Below the pieces are notes generated by a model that was given only the letters and a program-made list of their open reading frames with translations, was not told the origin of the DNA and made no database searches. Below, piece by piece: positions 1,791-62,527 of a stretch of DNA of 64,000 nucleotides. The position numbers and the translations under genes were made by a program. Position 1 is the first letter of the stretch, and every line of letters begins with the position of its first letter. Source of the stretch: Paracidobacterium acidisoli (lineage in GTDB: Bacteria; Acidobacteriota; Terriglobia; Terriglobales; Acidobacteriaceae); NCBI RefSeq assembly GCF_003428625.2, contig NZ_QVQT02000001.1, positions 806,001 to 870,000 on the forward strand, in the 5' to 3' direction.

Positions 1791-2684
1791 TCAGCCTTTG
1801 ACGGGGTGCTGCGGGTTCCAGAACGGTTCAGGCGTGGGGATATAGGCGACGGGCACTTCGGGGATGAACGATCTCAGCCAGTCGGCGCAGAGAATCATTC
1901 CCCCTTGTTCGGAGAGAACATGCCCCACGACGATGAGCGCCTTCTTCTGCCCCTCGGTGACGCAGTCGCGGGCGAACTCGACGAGCTCCCATTCGCGGGT
2001 TTCTCCGCAGATCAGCACGTCGACGTCGGGCCTGGAGATCATCGCGATACCTGGCTCCCTGCCCAGATAGCCCCAGCTGGCCTGAACGTGATGGACGGGC
2101 ATGCCGGGATCGCCGACGACACGCATGGTTCTCGCATGAAGGCGAGTCTGCATCTCCTGCGCAAATTTTGCAAGCGGCGTGCCGGGAAAGGTGAGGCGTC
2201 TGGGGTTGGAGGGGTCGTCGACATTCTTATCCCATCCAAGCTCGTGCGCCATGCCGGCGGCGATTCCATCGGGATGCCGCGCGTGCCAGTGATCGTGGAA
2301 GCGGAAGATGGCCATGTTGTGCTTCCGGATGAAATCGAGCTTGTACTGCAGAACAGGATTGCCCTGGATGTCGTCGGTCTTGTCCTGCTGCAGGTAGAAG
2401 GGCGTCTCATGACTAACGATCATGTTCTTTCCTTCGGCGGCAGCCCGCTCGATCACATCCTGCGTGGCCATCATGACGGAGGCGATTCCATTGACCGGCG
2501 TATTTTCATCGCCCGCGACGATGACATCCACCGTCGTCGCGCGCCACGGAATTCCCACCTGTTTCTGAATCCGTTTGACGACCTCTCCTGCGGTGAGTTT
2601 CGGCTGGGGAGTCTGCGCGACGGCGAGCTGAGAGAGAAAGGCGCTTCCTGCCACGACAAACTCACGCCGGGAGAGTGGGCTCAT
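1791..2684 (-). CDS. Tat-exported NIF3/DUF34-like putative metal-binding protein
   Basis: A 297-residue protein with a twin-arginine leader (LSRREFVVAGSAF, residues 4-16). The ATG at 2684 is chosen because GGAG sits six bases upstream; earlier in-frame TTG (2708) and ATG (2696) starts lack this. The body resembles the NIF3/DUF34 dinuclear-metal family. Likely ligand positions are H92 (IVSHETPF), the H130-D-H132-W-H134 cluster (FHDHWHAR), and H255/E259 (GHVLSEQGG). The family is widespread but its biochemical role is poorly settled, and most members are cytoplasmic, so a Tat leader is notable. It lies 155 bases after a TonB receptor and 14 bases before the multihaem cytochrome gene, on the same strand. 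Two relatives occur at 60777-62527. Confidence 0.75.
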   Translation of the reverse strand: MSPLSRREFVVAGSAFLSQLAVAQTPQPKLTAGEVVKRIQKQVGIPWRATTVDVIVAGDENTPVNGIASVMMATQDVIERAAAEGKNMIVSHETPFYLQQDKTDDIQGNPVLQYKLDFIRKHNMAIFRFHDHWHARHPDGIAAGMAHELGWDKNVDDPSNPRRLTFPGTPLAKFAQEMQTRLHARTMRVVGDPGMPVHHVQASWGYLGREPGIAMISRPDVDVLICGETREWELVEFARDCVTEGQKKALIVVGHVLSEQGGMILCADWLRSFIPEVPVAYIPTPEPFWNPQHPVKG

Positions 2685-6569: not shown

Positions 6570-6675
6570 AATTGCAATTCGTACATTTATGGACGGCGGC
6601 GTAAAAGCAGACGGCAAAATCCTGCCGTCCGCGAGCTGCCGGTAACCTCCGAACCCGATGCATCCAGGAGCCCCT

Positions 6676-7494
6676 ATGCCTTCGGCGAGCCGCGGTGCAG
6701 TGATCGCACTTCCCTTCCGGTGGAGCGCGCCGCACATCCTCCTGATGATTGCGGGAGTGCTGCTGATGGCTGCTGCGATTCATTTCGTGCTCGGCCGCCT
6801 GCGGTTATGGAGAGACCGGGCGGTTCTTGAAGAGCGCCAGCGTCTGGCTCTGGAGATGCACGACACGCTGGCACAGAGCTTTGCGGGAATCGGCTTTCAG
6901 CTGCAGGCGATGCGCGATGAGCTGCGGCTGAGCGAATCGCTTCGCATACAGGCAGACACCGCGCTGGAGATGGTACGGAGAGGTCATGAAGAGGCGAAGC
7001 GAAGCATTGCGGCGCTGCGCCCCGGCCTCAGCGGGAGCTCCGGCATGGCCGATGCGCTGCGGCGGGAGGCGGAGAGGCTAAGCAACGGTGGAGCGCTCGC
7101 GATCCGTGCCTCGATCGACGGCCAGGCGCGCCATCTGCCGCTGAACGTGGCCGATACGTTTTTCCGCATTGGACAGGAGGCAATCAGCAACTCGATTCGC
7201 CACGCCGGGGCCACACGCATGGATATCTCTCTTCACTTCGGGAAAGACGACGTGGCGCTCCTGGTAAAAGACGATGGCTCAGGATTCGAGCTGAACGCGC
7301 AGCATCAGGGCTTCGGAATCTGCGGGATGGCGAAGCGCGCCGACAGGATTGGCGCTCTGTTTGCGTTGTCGAGCGGAGCCGGAAAGGGCACGACGGTGAC
7401 GGTGACCGCACATTTGTCGTCCCGTCCTACTCTTCCGGAGCACGCGCGAAGAGCGGTGAAATATCTTTTGCGAACAGGGATACACACTTCATGA
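6676..7494 (+). CDS. Sensor histidine kinase, HisKA_3 (NarX/LiaS-like), short sensor
   Basis: A 272-residue kinase. The ATG at 6676 is preferred because AGGAG lies five bases upstream; an ATG at 6658 has no such site. There is a single membrane segment (about residues 21-40) followed directly by the dimerisation/phosphoacceptor helix EMHDTLAQSF, with the acceptor His at about residue 62. The ATPase domain shows an N box (EAISNSIRHAG), a G1 box (DDGSGF), and later G boxes (GFGICGM, GAGKGTTVTV). Related acidobacterial kinases usually carry a long periplasmic beta-propeller plus Y_Y_Y sensor before the membrane segment; here that part is absent. The gene overlaps the response regulator by four bases (ATGA), so the two form a translationally coupled pair. 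Confidence 0.9.
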   Translation: MPSASRGAVIALPFRWSAPHILLMIAGVLLMAAAIHFVLGRLRLWRDRAVLEERQRLALEMHDTLAQSFAGIGFQLQAMRDELRLSESLRIQADTALEMVRRGHEEAKRSIAALRPGLSGSSGMADALRREAERLSNGGALAIRASIDGQARHLPLNVADTFFRIGQEAISNSIRHAGATRMDISLHFGKDDVALLVKDDGSGFELNAQHQGFGICGMAKRADRIGALFALSSGAGKGTTVTVTAHLSSRPTLPEHARRAVKYLLRTGIHTS

Positions 7495-8135
7495 ACCATG
7501 CACTGGCATCCTCCCCGATTCGACTCGTCATCGTCGACGATCATCCCGTCGTCCGCGCCGGACTCAGCAGCATGCTGAGCAGGCAGGAAGACATGACCCT
7601 CGTTGCCGAGTTTGCAGGCGCGAGCCCGATGGTCGATTTTGTGTCGCATGCACCGGTCGATCTTGTGCTTCTCGATCTGCGTATGCCGGGCATGTCCGGC
7701 ATCGAGGCCATTCGCGCTCTGCGGCAGTCCTCGCCCGGAACGAAGATCGTGGTTCTGTCGAGCTTCGAGTTCGATGAAGAGATCTACCAGGCGGTGGAGG
7801 CCGGCGTCAGGGGGTACCTGCTGAAGGATATGTCCGGCGACGACCTGATGCAGGCGATCCGCGAAGTGTACGAGGGCCAATTATGCTTTCCGCGGCGCAT
7901 TGCCCAGCGCCTGGAAGACAGAAAGCGGCGAGCCAACCTGAGCCCGCGGGAGCGGGAGATTCTGGGCTTTGTGGCCAAGGGATTCACCAACAAAGAGATT
8001 GCCGCGGCGCTGCACATCAGCCAGTTCACGGTGCGAAACCACATCAATCATCTGACCTCGAAGCTGGAAGTCAGCGACAGAACGGAAGCGGCGTTCTTTG
8101 CGATCCAGACGGGGATACTTATGCTTTCGCACTGA
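7491..8135 (+). CDS. NarL/FixJ-type response regulator
   Basis: A 214-residue regulator with an N-terminal receiver domain (acidic pocket D16/D17, phosphoacceptor D62 in LLDLRMPG, conserved Lys in LLKDMSGDD) and a C-terminal LuxR-type helix-turn-helix (about residues 148-208: LSPREREILGFVAKG, NKEIAAALHISQFTVRNH). It is the partner of the kinase encoded immediately upstream. A likely target is the divergent region at 6383-6675, which holds an inverted repeat, but the sequence does not prove this. A strong terminator follows at 8189-8223. Confidence 0.95.
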   Translation: MNHALASSPIRLVIVDDHPVVRAGLSSMLSRQEDMTLVAEFAGASPMVDFVSHAPVDLVLLDLRMPGMSGIEAIRALRQSSPGTKIVVLSSFEFDEEIYQAVEAGVRGYLLKDMSGDDLMQAIREVYEGQLCFPRRIAQRLEDRKRRANLSPREREILGFVAKGFTNKEIAAALHISQFTVRNHINHLTSKLEVSDRTEAAFFAIQTGILMLSH

Positions 8136-8188
8136 CACGTCAGCCTGCGCGAAGAGATTTTGTTTTAAGCGCTGCCCGCCGCAAAATG

Positions 8189-8223
8189 AAAACGGCCGCC
8201 CGAAAGAATCGGACGGCCGTTTT
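8189..8223. terminator. Bidirectional intrinsic terminator
   Basis: Perfect ten-base arms AAAACGGCCG (8189-8198) and CGGCCGTTTT (8214-8223) flank a 15-base loop. With A-run and T-run ends it can act on both strands. It lies between the convergent response-regulator and receptor genes. Confidence 0.85.
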
Positions 8224-8251
8224 GCTGTTCTCTCTTCAGGAGAGGATGGGC

Positions 8252-11200
8252 TCAGAAGCTGGCACGTACGTGGAACTGAATCCGGCGCGGCGGCAGCTGG
8301 CTTGTGGCCTGTCCGAACAGAGAGCTGGACAGATCGGAGTTAACTGAGGTGAGGTTGGCGCGGTTGAAGATGTTGATGAATTCTCCCTTGCCCTCGAGCT
8401 GCAGCTTTTCGCCAAAGAACCACGGCACGTGGAAGAACTTGTCGAGGTTGAAGTCGACATTGTTGTATCCCGGCTGGTCGTAGGTATTGCGGCCGAGATC
8501 GCCTTCCGTTCCGAGCGCGGGTACCGGGAATGCGGACGCCGGAAATACTCCCTTGAGGAAGGCTCTTCTGGATTGCCCACCGACATGCGAACCAAAGGTG
8601 GGAACATTGGGCACATCGTAGTTCGATCCATCCGCGTTATAGTCGCCGCCGGAATTTCCGATGACCTGACCGGAGGAGTTATAGATCGGATTGAAGGCCG
8701 CGCTGGTATATACCGTGAACGGCAATCCGGTCTGCATAATCCACACACCGCCGAACTGCCATCCGCCGAGGGCGTTCCGCTTCCAGCGAGAGCCGTAGTC
8801 ATTGGGCACGGTCCATGTGCCGTCGACCGAGAACTGCTGGCGGATGTCGAAGTCGGCCCGGCCGCGCTGAGCAGAGAGGTTGCCATTCTGGATGATGTTC
8901 TGCGCAGCGCCGCTGGATGGAGTGATCTGGCCACTGTCGAGCGAACCGGACTGGCTGATCACGTCCAGCGCTTTGCCGAAGGTGTAGATACCGCGCAGGG
9001 CGACTCCATGATTGAGGCGGCGCTGCAGCATCGCAGTACCGTAGTTGCCAATGGAGTTGCCGTTGGAGGTGGCGTACTGTATCTGGCCGAAGTTCGGATT
9101 CAGCCGCGCCAGGGCTCCGTTATTGACGACCAGATCGCCAGCGAAGCGGTTGATGTCCTGATTGAAGACGGGCAGATGACGCGCCGCGGAGGCGGAGTAG
9201 TTCAGCTCAGCAACCCAGCCGCCGGGCAGCTCCTGCTGAATGCTGAGCGTCCAGTCGGTGACGGAGGTGAACTTGTAGTTGGGAGAGTAGCCGCCAAGGC
9301 TCGCCTTCTGACCGTCGATTCCGCCGCTGGGGTTGAGCACTACGTTGCTGGTGTCGACGACCGGGCAGACTTCAGAGAAGCCCGACGGCGCGCTGCAAAG
9401 CTGGAAGTCCGGCGTTTGCCCCTGCTGCACGCTGATGGACGGCGTGTAGAAGTTGGGCAGGTTGCCGGCAGTGATATCAGTGATGTGGATGTACGGCGGC
9501 TGATCCGAGAACATGCCGACGCCGCCACGCACCGCGGTGCGGCCGGTGCCGAAGACGTCCCATGAGAAGCCGATGCGGGGTGTAAGTCCCCAGACGTTCT
9601 GACCGAGAACATGATTGTTCTTCGCCAGACCGGCGGAGCCACTCGCGATCTGCTCGTCTGTGGTAGCGCCCGATCCGAAGCTGAAGTTTGTCAGCTGCGG
9701 GCTCTCGATGGAGAAGAAATTCGCCATCGTGTCATAGCGGACACCGGCATTCAGCGTAAGGCGCGGAATGACCTTCCAGTCATCCTGAACAAATACGCCG
9801 GTATACAGCGCGCGATAGCGGCGGTTGTAGGGGGCCTCGGCGTGCGTGAGCAGGCTGACCGGTGTGGAGCTGGCGGAGAATGCCTTGTCCTGGACGAAAT
9901 CGAGCAGGCTGTTGAAGTTATACGTAGGACGGTCAAACGCGCCGCTCTGCGAGTCGTTTTCGCGGATATTGAACTGCTCGAAGCCGAACTTGAGCGTGTG
10001 CGTTTTGATGGTCGCCGTCATCACGTCACGCCAGCCCAGTGTGGACTGCGTGAAATTGCCGGGGCCCCAGTTGGAAAAGCCCTGCAGACCGGTGACGTTG
10101 ATATAAGGAATGGCCATCGAGTCGGCGGCCAGATTCGAGCCATATGGGCGGATAATGTTCGCACCCACTTCGTTCAGAAGATGCGCGGAGAAGGTATGCG
10201 TCCAGTCGACATTGACGAAGTCGGAGCTGTTTGCCTGATTAGCATTCAGCACCGGACGCGGCGTTGCGGCTTCGGTGGTGTCGTAGGTACGAAGACCATC
10301 GACATACACGCGGTCGCTCTGATTGATGTAGTAGTCACCGCGAACGCTCCACTGATAGCCGTTCTTGGGCACGGAGTAACTGATGTTGGAGGTGCCGACC
10401 ACATTCAGATTCGCGGGGAGATTCGCCGGCGGCGCGAAGGCGCCGGGGGTTCCACCGTCAGAGGAGGGCTGCTCATACTGAGCGACTGTTTTGAAGCCGC
10501 TGGTCGGGAAGTTGAGTGGTGGAGCAGTGGTCAGAACCTGCGTTGCAACGGTATTCGGCAGATTGGTTTTGGCCCAGTTGTCGAAGTCCTGCGTTTCCAC
10601 GGTGTAGGAACCCGCGCTGGTGGTGCTGGAGCGGAGCACATCGATAGCGCCGAAGATGAAGAGCTTGTTTTTAATGACTGGACCGCCGAAGGTGCCGCTC
10701 ACCTCGTTGCGGCTGTAGGCGGGCACGGCGATCGGCTCAAACTCAGTACGGGATTCGAGGTCGTTGTTGCGGAAGTAGTAGTCGATGGTTCCGTGAAAGT
10801 CGTTGGTGCCGGACTTGGTGAACACGTCGACCGTGGCGCCGCCGTTTCTTCCCTTCGAGGCATCGAAGTCGTTGGTACGAATGTCGATCGACTGCACGAT
10901 CTCAGGGTTCGGCGAGATGGAAGTGCCGCCGCCGCGGGATGGCGTATTGGTGTATGCGCCATCGATCTGATATCCGTTCTGCTCCTGGCGCAGACCGGCA
11001 GCGTTGATGTTGATCGCGTATTCGTTCGTGTAGTTATCGCCGGAGGTGACCGCGGTTCCCGTCATGCCCGGGGTCAGGGACGCGAGGCCGTAGACGTTCT
11101 GGTCAGGCAGCGGCGTCTGCTGTACGGTCTCCGATCCGATGACCGATCCGGTCGTGGGAGTGACCAGGTCGAGCGCGACCTGGGAGGCGCTTACCGTGAC

Positions 11201-60776: not shown

Positions 60777-61730
60777 ATGCACCAGATCTCACGACGCAGG
60801 TTTGTCGCGCTTACGGCGGCCGGCATTGCGGCCACACCGCTGGCGGCGATGGCACGCCCGATCGGCGGCGCGGTTACAGCGCAGGATGTCGTCGATCGCA
60901 TCAAGAAGAACATCGGCGGCGACTGGACTTCGGAAACGGTCGACACGTTCAAGACCGGCGATCCCTCAACCCCTGTGACGGGTATCGTCACCACGGCGCT
61001 CGCATCGCTCGATGTGCTTGGACATGCGGTAAAGACTGGCGCAAACCTTATCATCACCTGCGAGCCGACATTCTTTTCCAAAGCCGACACGCCAACCCCT
61101 CCGGTCAGACGCCCCTTCGGACTCGGCGGCCCCGGCCGCAGCGCTCCGCCTGAAACCCCATCTGCTCCGCCTCCGCCAGATCCGGTTTTTACGGCCAAGG
61201 ACGACTTCCTCAGGAAACACAACCTCGTCGTGTGGCGCTTCTCCGATCACTGGCGCCTGCGCACTCCCGATCCGTACTCGCAGGGACTCGTCGATGCATT
61301 CGGCTGGTCGAAGTTTGCCGGGTCCGGCGATCCAGGACATGTTTCTATCCCTGAAACCTCACTGGATGCGCTTGTTTCGCACGTGAAGAAATCCCTGAAC
61401 TCTCGCGGCGGCATGCGCATCGTGGGCGACTCGAAGCTGCGCGTGCGGAAGGTCGCATTCCTTCCGGGATCGACTCCGATTCAGGCGTCGATCGCGACGC
61501 TTCCCGGCGTGGACACGATCATTGCCGGCGAGGTGCGCGAGTGGGAATCCGTTGAGTATGTGCGTGACACCGTGGCGCTCGGCGGAAAGAAGGCGCTGAT
61601 CCTTGTGGGCCGTATCGTCTCGGAGAATCCCGGGATGCAGGTCTGCGCGCAGTGGCTGAAGACTATCGTTCCCGAGGTCGCATCGACATGGGCTCCCGTC
61701 GGCGATCCGTACTGGAGGCCAACCTTATGA
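60777..61730 (+). CDS. Tat-exported NIF3/DUF34-like protein with substituted metal-ligand positions
   Basis: A 317-residue protein with a Tat leader (ISRRRFVALTAAGIAA). It aligns with the NIF3-like proteins at 1791-2684 and 61727-62527 along its length (e.g. VVDRIKKNIGGDW; DDFLRKHNLVVWRF; GRIVSENPGMQVCAQWL). However, positions that are His in both relatives are changed: C95 (ITCEP), S156 (FSDHW), R160, and R279 (VGRIVSE); only H158 and E283 remain. Residues about 105-137 are a Pro/Gly-rich insertion absent from the others. It may have lost or altered metal binding. It overlaps the next gene by four bases (ATGA), so both are made together. Function unknown. Confidence 0.75.
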   Translation: MHQISRRRFVALTAAGIAATPLAAMARPIGGAVTAQDVVDRIKKNIGGDWTSETVDTFKTGDPSTPVTGIVTTALASLDVLGHAVKTGANLIITCEPTFFSKADTPTPPVRRPFGLGGPGRSAPPETPSAPPPPDPVFTAKDDFLRKHNLVVWRFSDHWRLRTPDPYSQGLVDAFGWSKFAGSGDPGHVSIPETSLDALVSHVKKSLNSRGGMRIVGDSKLRVRKVAFLPGSTPIQASIATLPGVDTIIAGEVREWESVEYVRDTVALGGKKALILVGRIVSENPGMQVCAQWLKTIVPEVASTWAPVGDPYWRPTL

Positions 61731-62527
61731 GCACGCTGACTGCTGGCGAAGTCGTTACCCGCATCAAAGCCAATCTCGGCTTCCCGTGGAGGAGTACGAC
61801 CTACCGCGATACCTTCAAATTCGGCGGCCCCGAAACAGTTGTTACCGGGATTGCGACGACCATGTTCTGCTCGTACGACGCGATCAAAAGCGCCTCCGAG
61901 GCAGGCTGCAATATGCTCATCCCGCACGAGGACACGTACTGGAACGATCGCGACGACCTGTCGATCGTAAGCGGCGACCCGGCCTATAAGCTCAAGGTCG
62001 ACTTCATGCGCGAGCACAACATTGTCATCTTTCGCATGCACGATCACATGCACGCGCGCCGGCCCGATTTTATTTACGTCGGTCTCGCACGCGCCCTGGG
62101 ACTCGAAAACCAGTGGGAGACGGCGCCACAGTCGCACCACTTCAACCTTCCACCGATCACACTCGGCGAGCTGGCGTCCACGTGCCAGAAGCGGCTCGGC
62201 GACAGAGCGCTGCGTGTTGTGGGTGATCCGGCGGCGAAGGTGAGCCGCCTGCATCTCGGCGTGGGCTACGCTACGCCATCCATCAACAGCCCCGACGTGG
62301 ATGTCGTTATCAGCGGAGAGCAGCAGGAGACCGACGGCTTTCTCGACAGCCCATCTTATGTTCTCGACGCCACGACACTGGGAATTCCAAAAGGATGGAT
62401 CATGCTGGGCCACAACGTGTCGGAAGAGCAGGGCATGCTCGAAATGGCTCAGTGGGTCAAATCGATCACTCCGGAGGTTCCCGTTCAGCTCGTCAGAAGC
62501 GGCGAACCCTTCTGGGCGCCGAAGTAA
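61727..62527 (+). CDS. Cytoplasmic NIF3/DUF34-like putative metal-binding protein
   Basis: A 266-residue protein without a leader. The ATG at 61727 overlaps the preceding stop (ATGA). All likely metal ligands seen in the 1791-2684 protein are kept: H67 (IPHEDTYW), H105-D-H107-M-H109 (RMHDHMHAR), and H229/E233 (GHNVSEEQG). NIF3/DUF34 proteins bind two metal ions in a hexameric ring; their reaction is not settled. It is coupled to an exported paralogue with degraded ligands. The pair is followed by a hairpin and a convergent aminotransferase gene. Confidence 0.75.
   Translation: MSTLTAGEVVTRIKANLGFPWRSTTYRDTFKFGGPETVVTGIATTMFCSYDAIKSASEAGCNMLIPHEDTYWNDRDDLSIVSGDPAYKLKVDFMREHNIVIFRMHDHMHARRPDFIYVGLARALGLENQWETAPQSHHFNLPPITLGELASTCQKRLGDRALRVVGDPAAKVSRLHLGVGYATPSINSPDVDVVISGEQQETDGFLDSPSYVLDATTLGIPKGWIMLGHNVSEEQGMLEMAQWVKSITPEVPVQLVRSGEPFWAPK

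Follow-up and report, generated by a model that had tools for sequence, protein, structure and literature searches.

A probably exported NIF3 pair in Acidobacteriota: a Tat-leadered pseudoenzyme and its leaderless, ligand-intact paralogue as a probable hetero-oligomer

One of the questions raised by this locus is why two NIF3 paralogues, one with an export leader but a dismantled metal site and the other leaderless and intact, are encoded in overlapping genes, and where their products work. NIF3/DUF34 is a near-universal protein family whose function is not agreed. The window analysed here is a 64,000-nucleotide stretch of the Paracidobacterium acidisoli genome, in which gene A (60777..61730, + strand, 317 aa) and gene B (61727..62527, + strand, 266 aa) share an ATGA start/stop overlap (61727..61730, + strand). 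GGAGG, the ribosome-binding site of B, lies within A, 5' of the ATG of B (61714..61718, + strand), and the 4-nt overlap is found in 10/10 Acidobacteriaceae pairs. In the window the pair is neighboured by genes for an IclR regulator, a CarboxypepD-type outer-membrane receptor, an SDR, a DUF1569 protein and an aminotransferase. A third NIF3 copy (1791..2684, - strand) is unpaired and stands outside the pair, and is used only for comparison. The preliminary description of the locus, whose coordinates, overlap and residue numbers were all exact on re-check, saw in A a ligand-lost copy coupled to an intact paralogue but working in a different compartment. The coupling is borne out here; the separate compartments are probably wrong.

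All three proteins belong to the family, with PF01784 (DUF34_NIF3) scores of 48.9 bits for A, 40.2 for B and 54.5 for the 1791-2684 copy against a cut-off of 23.4. Their TIGR00486 (YbgI_SA1388 equivalog) scores of 28.9, 32.4 and 37.4 bits lie far below the cut-off of 130.55. A profile of the subfamily matches XynX (PDB 9g9u) with an E of 1e-78 over 255 positions, which places it in the XynX-type subgroup, and it also aligns with SA1388 and YbgI; A and B each lack one XynX-type motif set. AlphaFold2 models, built as single chains, reached a pLDDT of 88.6 and a pTM of 0.84 for A and a pLDDT of 91.6 and a pTM of 0.88 for B. In Foldseek the top match was XynX 9g9u both for the A model (E 3.9e-26) and for the B model, and the top 20 matches of both models are exclusively NIF3 structures, so that both have the NIF3 fold. 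A profile search of the source genome found four DUF34_NIF3 genes, all of the XynX type, and no ordinary YbgI/YqfO-type cytoplasmic copy. The fourth gene (G000:C3:5735-6613) has a Tat-type leader and intact ligands.

In bacterial NIF3 structures the dinuclear metal site consists of five His, one Asp and one Glu, its conserved residues being given in PMC1779786 and PMC8469502; A does not have this set. The His residues that the preliminary description had listed in the 1791-2684 protein (H92, H130, H134 and H255) and in B (H67, H105, H109 and H229) do correspond to C95, S156, R160 and R279 in A. By profile alignment, C95-E96 falls on the YbgI HH motif, with C95 (61059..61061, + strand) in place of its first His, and R279...E283 falls on the YbgI GHHATE motif, with R279 (61611..61613, + strand) in place of the GHxxSE His. 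By way of a B-SA1388 alignment, the H and the D of the HTNLD-type motif correspond to S156 and R160; S156 (61242..61244, + strand) replaces a metal-site His, the first of HDHWH, and R160 (61254..61256, + strand) replaces a metal-site His that is Asp in canonical NIF3. The substituted residues thus lie on the metal-site motifs of YbgI and SA1388 and not outside them. All four His positions are lost in A, which retains the bridging Glu, E283. B retains the XynX-type ligand set H67, E68, H105, H109, H229 and E233, a variant of the canonical set.

The two sites also differ in how they are conserved. The main survey holds 30 class-I pairs, in which A is Tat-leadered and degenerate and B is leaderless and intact (30/30); the B of L102 is cut by a contig end, which leaves 29 complete B proteins. 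The metal ligands of B are invariant across these 29, including H67 (61925..61927, + strand), H105 and H109 of the intact motif H105-D106-H107-M108-H109 (62039..62053, + strand), in which D106 is constant as well, and H229 of GHxxSE (62411..62413, + strand). In the 30 A proteins, positions 95, 156 and 160 vary freely, with C, Y, S, H, A, G or L at position 95. R279 and E283 are fixed (30/30), D157 is present in 29/30 and H158 in 28/30. According to the preliminary description, absence of the substitutions from close relatives would have pointed to sequence error; the relatives carry the same kinds of substitution, and this doubt falls. By its model A is properly folded, although its metal site has been dismantled: a NIF3 member by fold and descent, yet not a canonical metal enzyme.

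The pair is kept together. A search of 398 genomes of the family turned up A orthologues in nine besides the source genome, with B adjoining in each, and a separate search for B returned the same ten genomes; B without A was not found in any of the 398. Protein identity is 66-76% to A orthologues and 78-83% to B orthologues, and in Acidobacteriaceae A has a median dN/dS of 0.14 and B one of 0.07, which shows strong purifying selection. Named relatives from a scan of species genomes extended the set; among them are Terriglobus albidus (L087 in strain DSM 26559), Terracidiphilus, Bryobacterales, Vicinamibacterales and a Gemmatimonadetes MAG. A replication by profile search in 399 class-level genomes gave 10 class-I tandems (7 new, 3 known), all with the same arrangement of leaders. 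The same adjacent pair is therefore known from about 37 genomes of Acidobacteriota and Gemmatimonadota (30 pairs of the main survey and 7 new ones). When the trait columns were left out of the tree, A and B each came out as a single clade (support 98 and 92), the two branching alike, and the distance matrices of A and B correlate at r=0.92, a value reached by 0/2000 permutations.

Several apparent departures were set aside. In L112 (around 6600-8700) B stands without a full A, but just upstream a C-terminal fragment of A is joined in frame to an unrelated protein, the result of a deletion or a misassembly. The supposed pair in L155 (G381) is a single gene split by a stop, and the TGA/TAA "stops inside" in L007 and L010 are the natural C-terminal ends. 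Separately, a record titled Rhodanobacteraceae (L098) has the same contig as G386, which is classed in the acidobacterial family of the window, and is probably a mislabelled bin.

Leaders were called by motif. The preliminary description had given A a Tat leader and a Pro/Gly-rich insertion, and both are present. The predicted leader, MHQISRRRFVALTAAGIAATPLAAMAR (60777..60857, + strand, with a putative cleavage site), shows the MHQISRRRFVALTAAG...AMA motif. The curated TAT model scores it at 11.2 bits, below its cut-off of 16.7, so the call is based on the motif and on how well it is conserved: I-S-R-R-x-F is unchanged in the 10 closest A orthologues, and a Tat-type leader is found in 30/30 class-I A proteins. 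The insertion (about residues 102-135; 61080..61181, + strand) is a low-confidence loop in the AlphaFold2 model and varies in length, with 27-34 columns in most Acidobacteriaceae and 9 in L065. Class-I B proteins begin right at the domain, without a leader; "Tat" leaders on B in L001, L093 and L038 proved to be an upstream frame inside A that was misread and has no hydrophobic stretch. TatC is encoded in the source genome (G000:C12:374137-374778, 239.8 bits).

The leader is not tied to the degenerate copy. In about 18 pairs of other architecture it is the intact copy that has the leader and the degenerate partner that is leaderless. Thus in class II (L066-L072) the degenerate, leaderless gene comes first and the intact gene with a Tat leader second, and in class IV (L075, L078-L081) the degenerate copy is again leaderless and the intact copy Tat-leadered. 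In L077 the order is inverted, with the intact, leader-bearing gene first, and the leader rule is unbroken; the one tandem of another kind in the replication set follows it as well. There are also arrays, such as L074 (3189-6939), where four NIF3 genes stand in a row in the order degenerate, intact, degenerate, intact, the degenerate copies leaderless and the intact ones with a Tat leader. Exactly one Tat leader per pair is found in all complete enzyme-pseudoenzyme pairs, although these are not independent tests of the rule, since leader loss takes only ~4 changes on the tree. One tandem of the replication set (L250) has both copies intact and both with near-identical Tat leaders; it is a duplication without division of labour and stands in contrast to the enzyme-pseudoenzyme pairs.

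Relatives without a partner always have a leader of their own. The 75 complete unpaired intact relatives of the main survey carry 54 Sec-type and 21 Tat-type leaders, the Sec leaders mainly in one clade, so that the constant use of Tat by the pairs partly reflects ancestry; leaderless proteins among these were 0/75. About 50 further unpaired genes of the replication set are leader-bearing, and all of the complete unpaired relatives, ~120 overall, combine intact ligands with a leader. The 1791-2684 protein is an example in the window itself: it has a Tat-type leader (MSPLSRREFVVAG), which the preliminary description did not mention, intact ligands and the REWE loop described below. A leader is thus absent only where a partner copy has one, as would be expected if the leaderless partner rides along. 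The statement that NIF3 members are normally cytoplasmic fails for the XynX-type subfamily of Acidobacteriota, essentially all of whose members bear a leader or are paired with a leader-bearer, and judging from the gene sequences export appears to be the rule there and not the exception. A literature search on exported NIF3 proteins, or on NIF3 in Acidobacteria, found nothing relevant. A more distant leader-bearing NIF3 group (L136, L137, L139, L140 and L278) has an Asp at the canonical metal-site position (HHDHE) and no EWE.

The metal site of SA1388 looks into the interior of the ring and receives two His from the adjacent subunit; Asp305 and His308 lie at the dimer interface (PMC1779786). 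In alignment, the GDIKHHD loop at this interface is matched by GEVREWE in A and by GEQQETDG in B. In A this is the loop A250-E257, AGEVREWE (61524..61547, + strand), and in B, where REWE would be expected, there is a B-specific loop, S196-Y211 (SGEQQETDGFLDSPSY; 62312..62359, + strand). From the alignment with SA1388, the REWE loop of A would be part of the dimer interface, close to the neighbouring subunit's metal site. In the unpaired relatives metal ligands and EWE occur together (74/75). The class-I pairs divide them: A keeps EWE and has lost the ligands, and B keeps the ligands and is without EWE in every B of the survey. AGE-REWE is invariant within class-I A, a constancy that is biased for some loci (L086-L112), which were found by the pattern AGEVREWE; REWE is also kept in 14 pairs found without a pattern and, in the replication set, by the class-I tandems, and the change of the loop on the B side is unaffected by this bias. 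In class II EWE is present in both partners and in class IV in neither, so the argument for a composite site is strongest for class I.

The reversed leader in other pairs, the lack of leaderless unpaired relatives and the complementary losses point to one complex with one leader. The reading that best fits our data, to which we give a probability of roughly 0.64, is that A and B form an obligate enzyme-pseudoenzyme hetero-oligomer that is assembled in the cytoplasm and exported by Tat on the leader of A, as a "hitchhiker". Tat exports folded proteins and can carry leaderless partners, and hitchhiker export is established for HybOC and PaoABC (PMC4273604). An exported NIF3 ancestor, with a metal site completed at the subunit interface, would have been duplicated; A would then have retained the Tat leader and the interface loop and lost the metal ligands, and B would have retained the ligands, lost the leader and changed the loop. 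Made together from overlapping genes, B would fold, take up metal and bind A in the cytoplasm, and Tat would move the folded A-B complex out by the leader of A. Formation of the complex, its co-export and its metal content are inferred from these patterns. Size counts against co-export, as Tat would have a large cargo in a folded NIF3 hexamer.

We more tentatively propose, at somewhat below even chances, a wider generalization: that the split of an interface-built XynX-type NIF3 into an enzyme and a ligand-less paralogue sharing a single Tat leader arose or was rearranged several times, with the class-I subunits supplying complementary halves of the site and the pseudoenzyme acting as export escort. 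How many times degeneration began independently is uncertain from the tree, in which class-I A is grouped with the other degenerate copies at weak support (86) and long branches come together.

One alternative is that the partners do work in two compartments, A as an exported, metal-free binding protein on its own and B as an independent cytoplasmic enzyme, with the overlap merely balancing expression. This would account for a B that is leaderless in all pairs, and the route by which B is co-exported is a deduction; moreover, the XynX chain in the PDB has no leader and the protein is described as a regulator of xylanase expression. Yet two independent proteins would not explain why the leader is flipped in the other kinds of pair, why complete unpaired relatives always bear one, why the pair is unsplit across 398 genomes, or why A and B have lost complementary parts of a site that spans subunits in SA1388. 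We consider this alternative unlikely.

Slightly less probable still, in our estimate, is that A carries B out and completes the ring in a structural or allosteric role while contributing no residues to the active site. It draws on the same evidence from leaders and pairing as the composite hetero-oligomer, and the absence of EWE from both partners of class IV and its presence in both partners of class II indicate that complementation in trans is not universal. However, class-I A keeps REWE invariant while three of the four His positions drift, and REWE is exactly what B has lost.

It is quite improbable that A is active by itself with a remodelled site, in a metal-free or mononuclear chemistry through R160, R279, E283 and C95. 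The purifying selection on A and the constancy of R279 and E283, and nearly so of D157 and H158, would agree with such an activity, but positions 95, 156 and 160 drift among unlike residues, unlike a catalytic site. Sequence error or a decaying pseudogene, for which no support was found, can be rejected, since ~37 genomes share the same state, A is under selection (median dN/dS 0.14), its frame is open and its model is well folded.

Another question is what the exported A-B complex would act on. Only Pfam-confirmed neighbour families were used, as antisense and shadow frames blurred the clustering. The neighbours of class-I pairs include glucuronoyl esterase homologues (L062, L088, L101, L103, L104 and L106), an acetyl xylan esterase (L065), 3-keto-disaccharide hydrolases and PQQ dehydrogenases. 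The class II loci (L066-L072) form a steady cluster of an outer-membrane receptor, an alpha/beta hydrolase, the pair, a GDSL esterase, a putative esterase and a PfkB sugar kinase. From this gene context it is a reasonable lead that the pair helps to handle oxidised sugars, or sugars from hemicellulose, outside the cytoplasm, and the complex would probably act there on a small molecule derived from hemicellulose or oxidised sugars; any particular substrate would be a guess. The pair sharpens the NIF3 question: which portions of the site are required, which subunit provides them and what substrate they serve. It would place a NIF3 branch outside the cytoplasm, beside hemicellulose-degrading genes, and offer a natural, recurring case of a pseudoenzyme retained both to partner its active paralogue and to escort it in export, the leader switching between the partners across lineages.

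By sequence and by fold, the nearest solved relative of A and B is XynX of Geobacillus (PDB 9g9u), which shares the THE, HDxWH, GExxEWE and GHxxSE motifs and a link to xylan use. Unlike the pair, it shows no leader in the deposited chain and has ligands and EWE in one chain, and we know of no degenerate partner for it. A table in PMC8469502 reports that XynX lowers xylanase (xynA) expression in Geobacillus. The canonical NIF3 proteins YbgI, SA1388 and YqfO, hexamers with a dinuclear metal site, have the fold in common with the pair and their metal-site positions align; where they have HH the XynX type has HE, and it has His in place of the Asp of HxxxD. They differ from the pair in that A is without all four His, and in that the pair consists of two paralogues and an export leader. 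HybOC (hydrogenase-2) and PaoABC resemble the pair in having a lone Tat leader on one subunit and a leaderless partner encoded next to it, but their subunits are unlike each other and carry redox cofactors, whereas A and B are paralogues, one of them a pseudoenzyme, and their export is predicted from the genes. In enzyme-pseudoenzyme paralogue heteromers an inactive paralogue is kept together with an active one under selection. Compared with such heteromers in general, what sets A and B apart is that the inactive partner carries the export signal, a task that in other lineages falls to the active partner.
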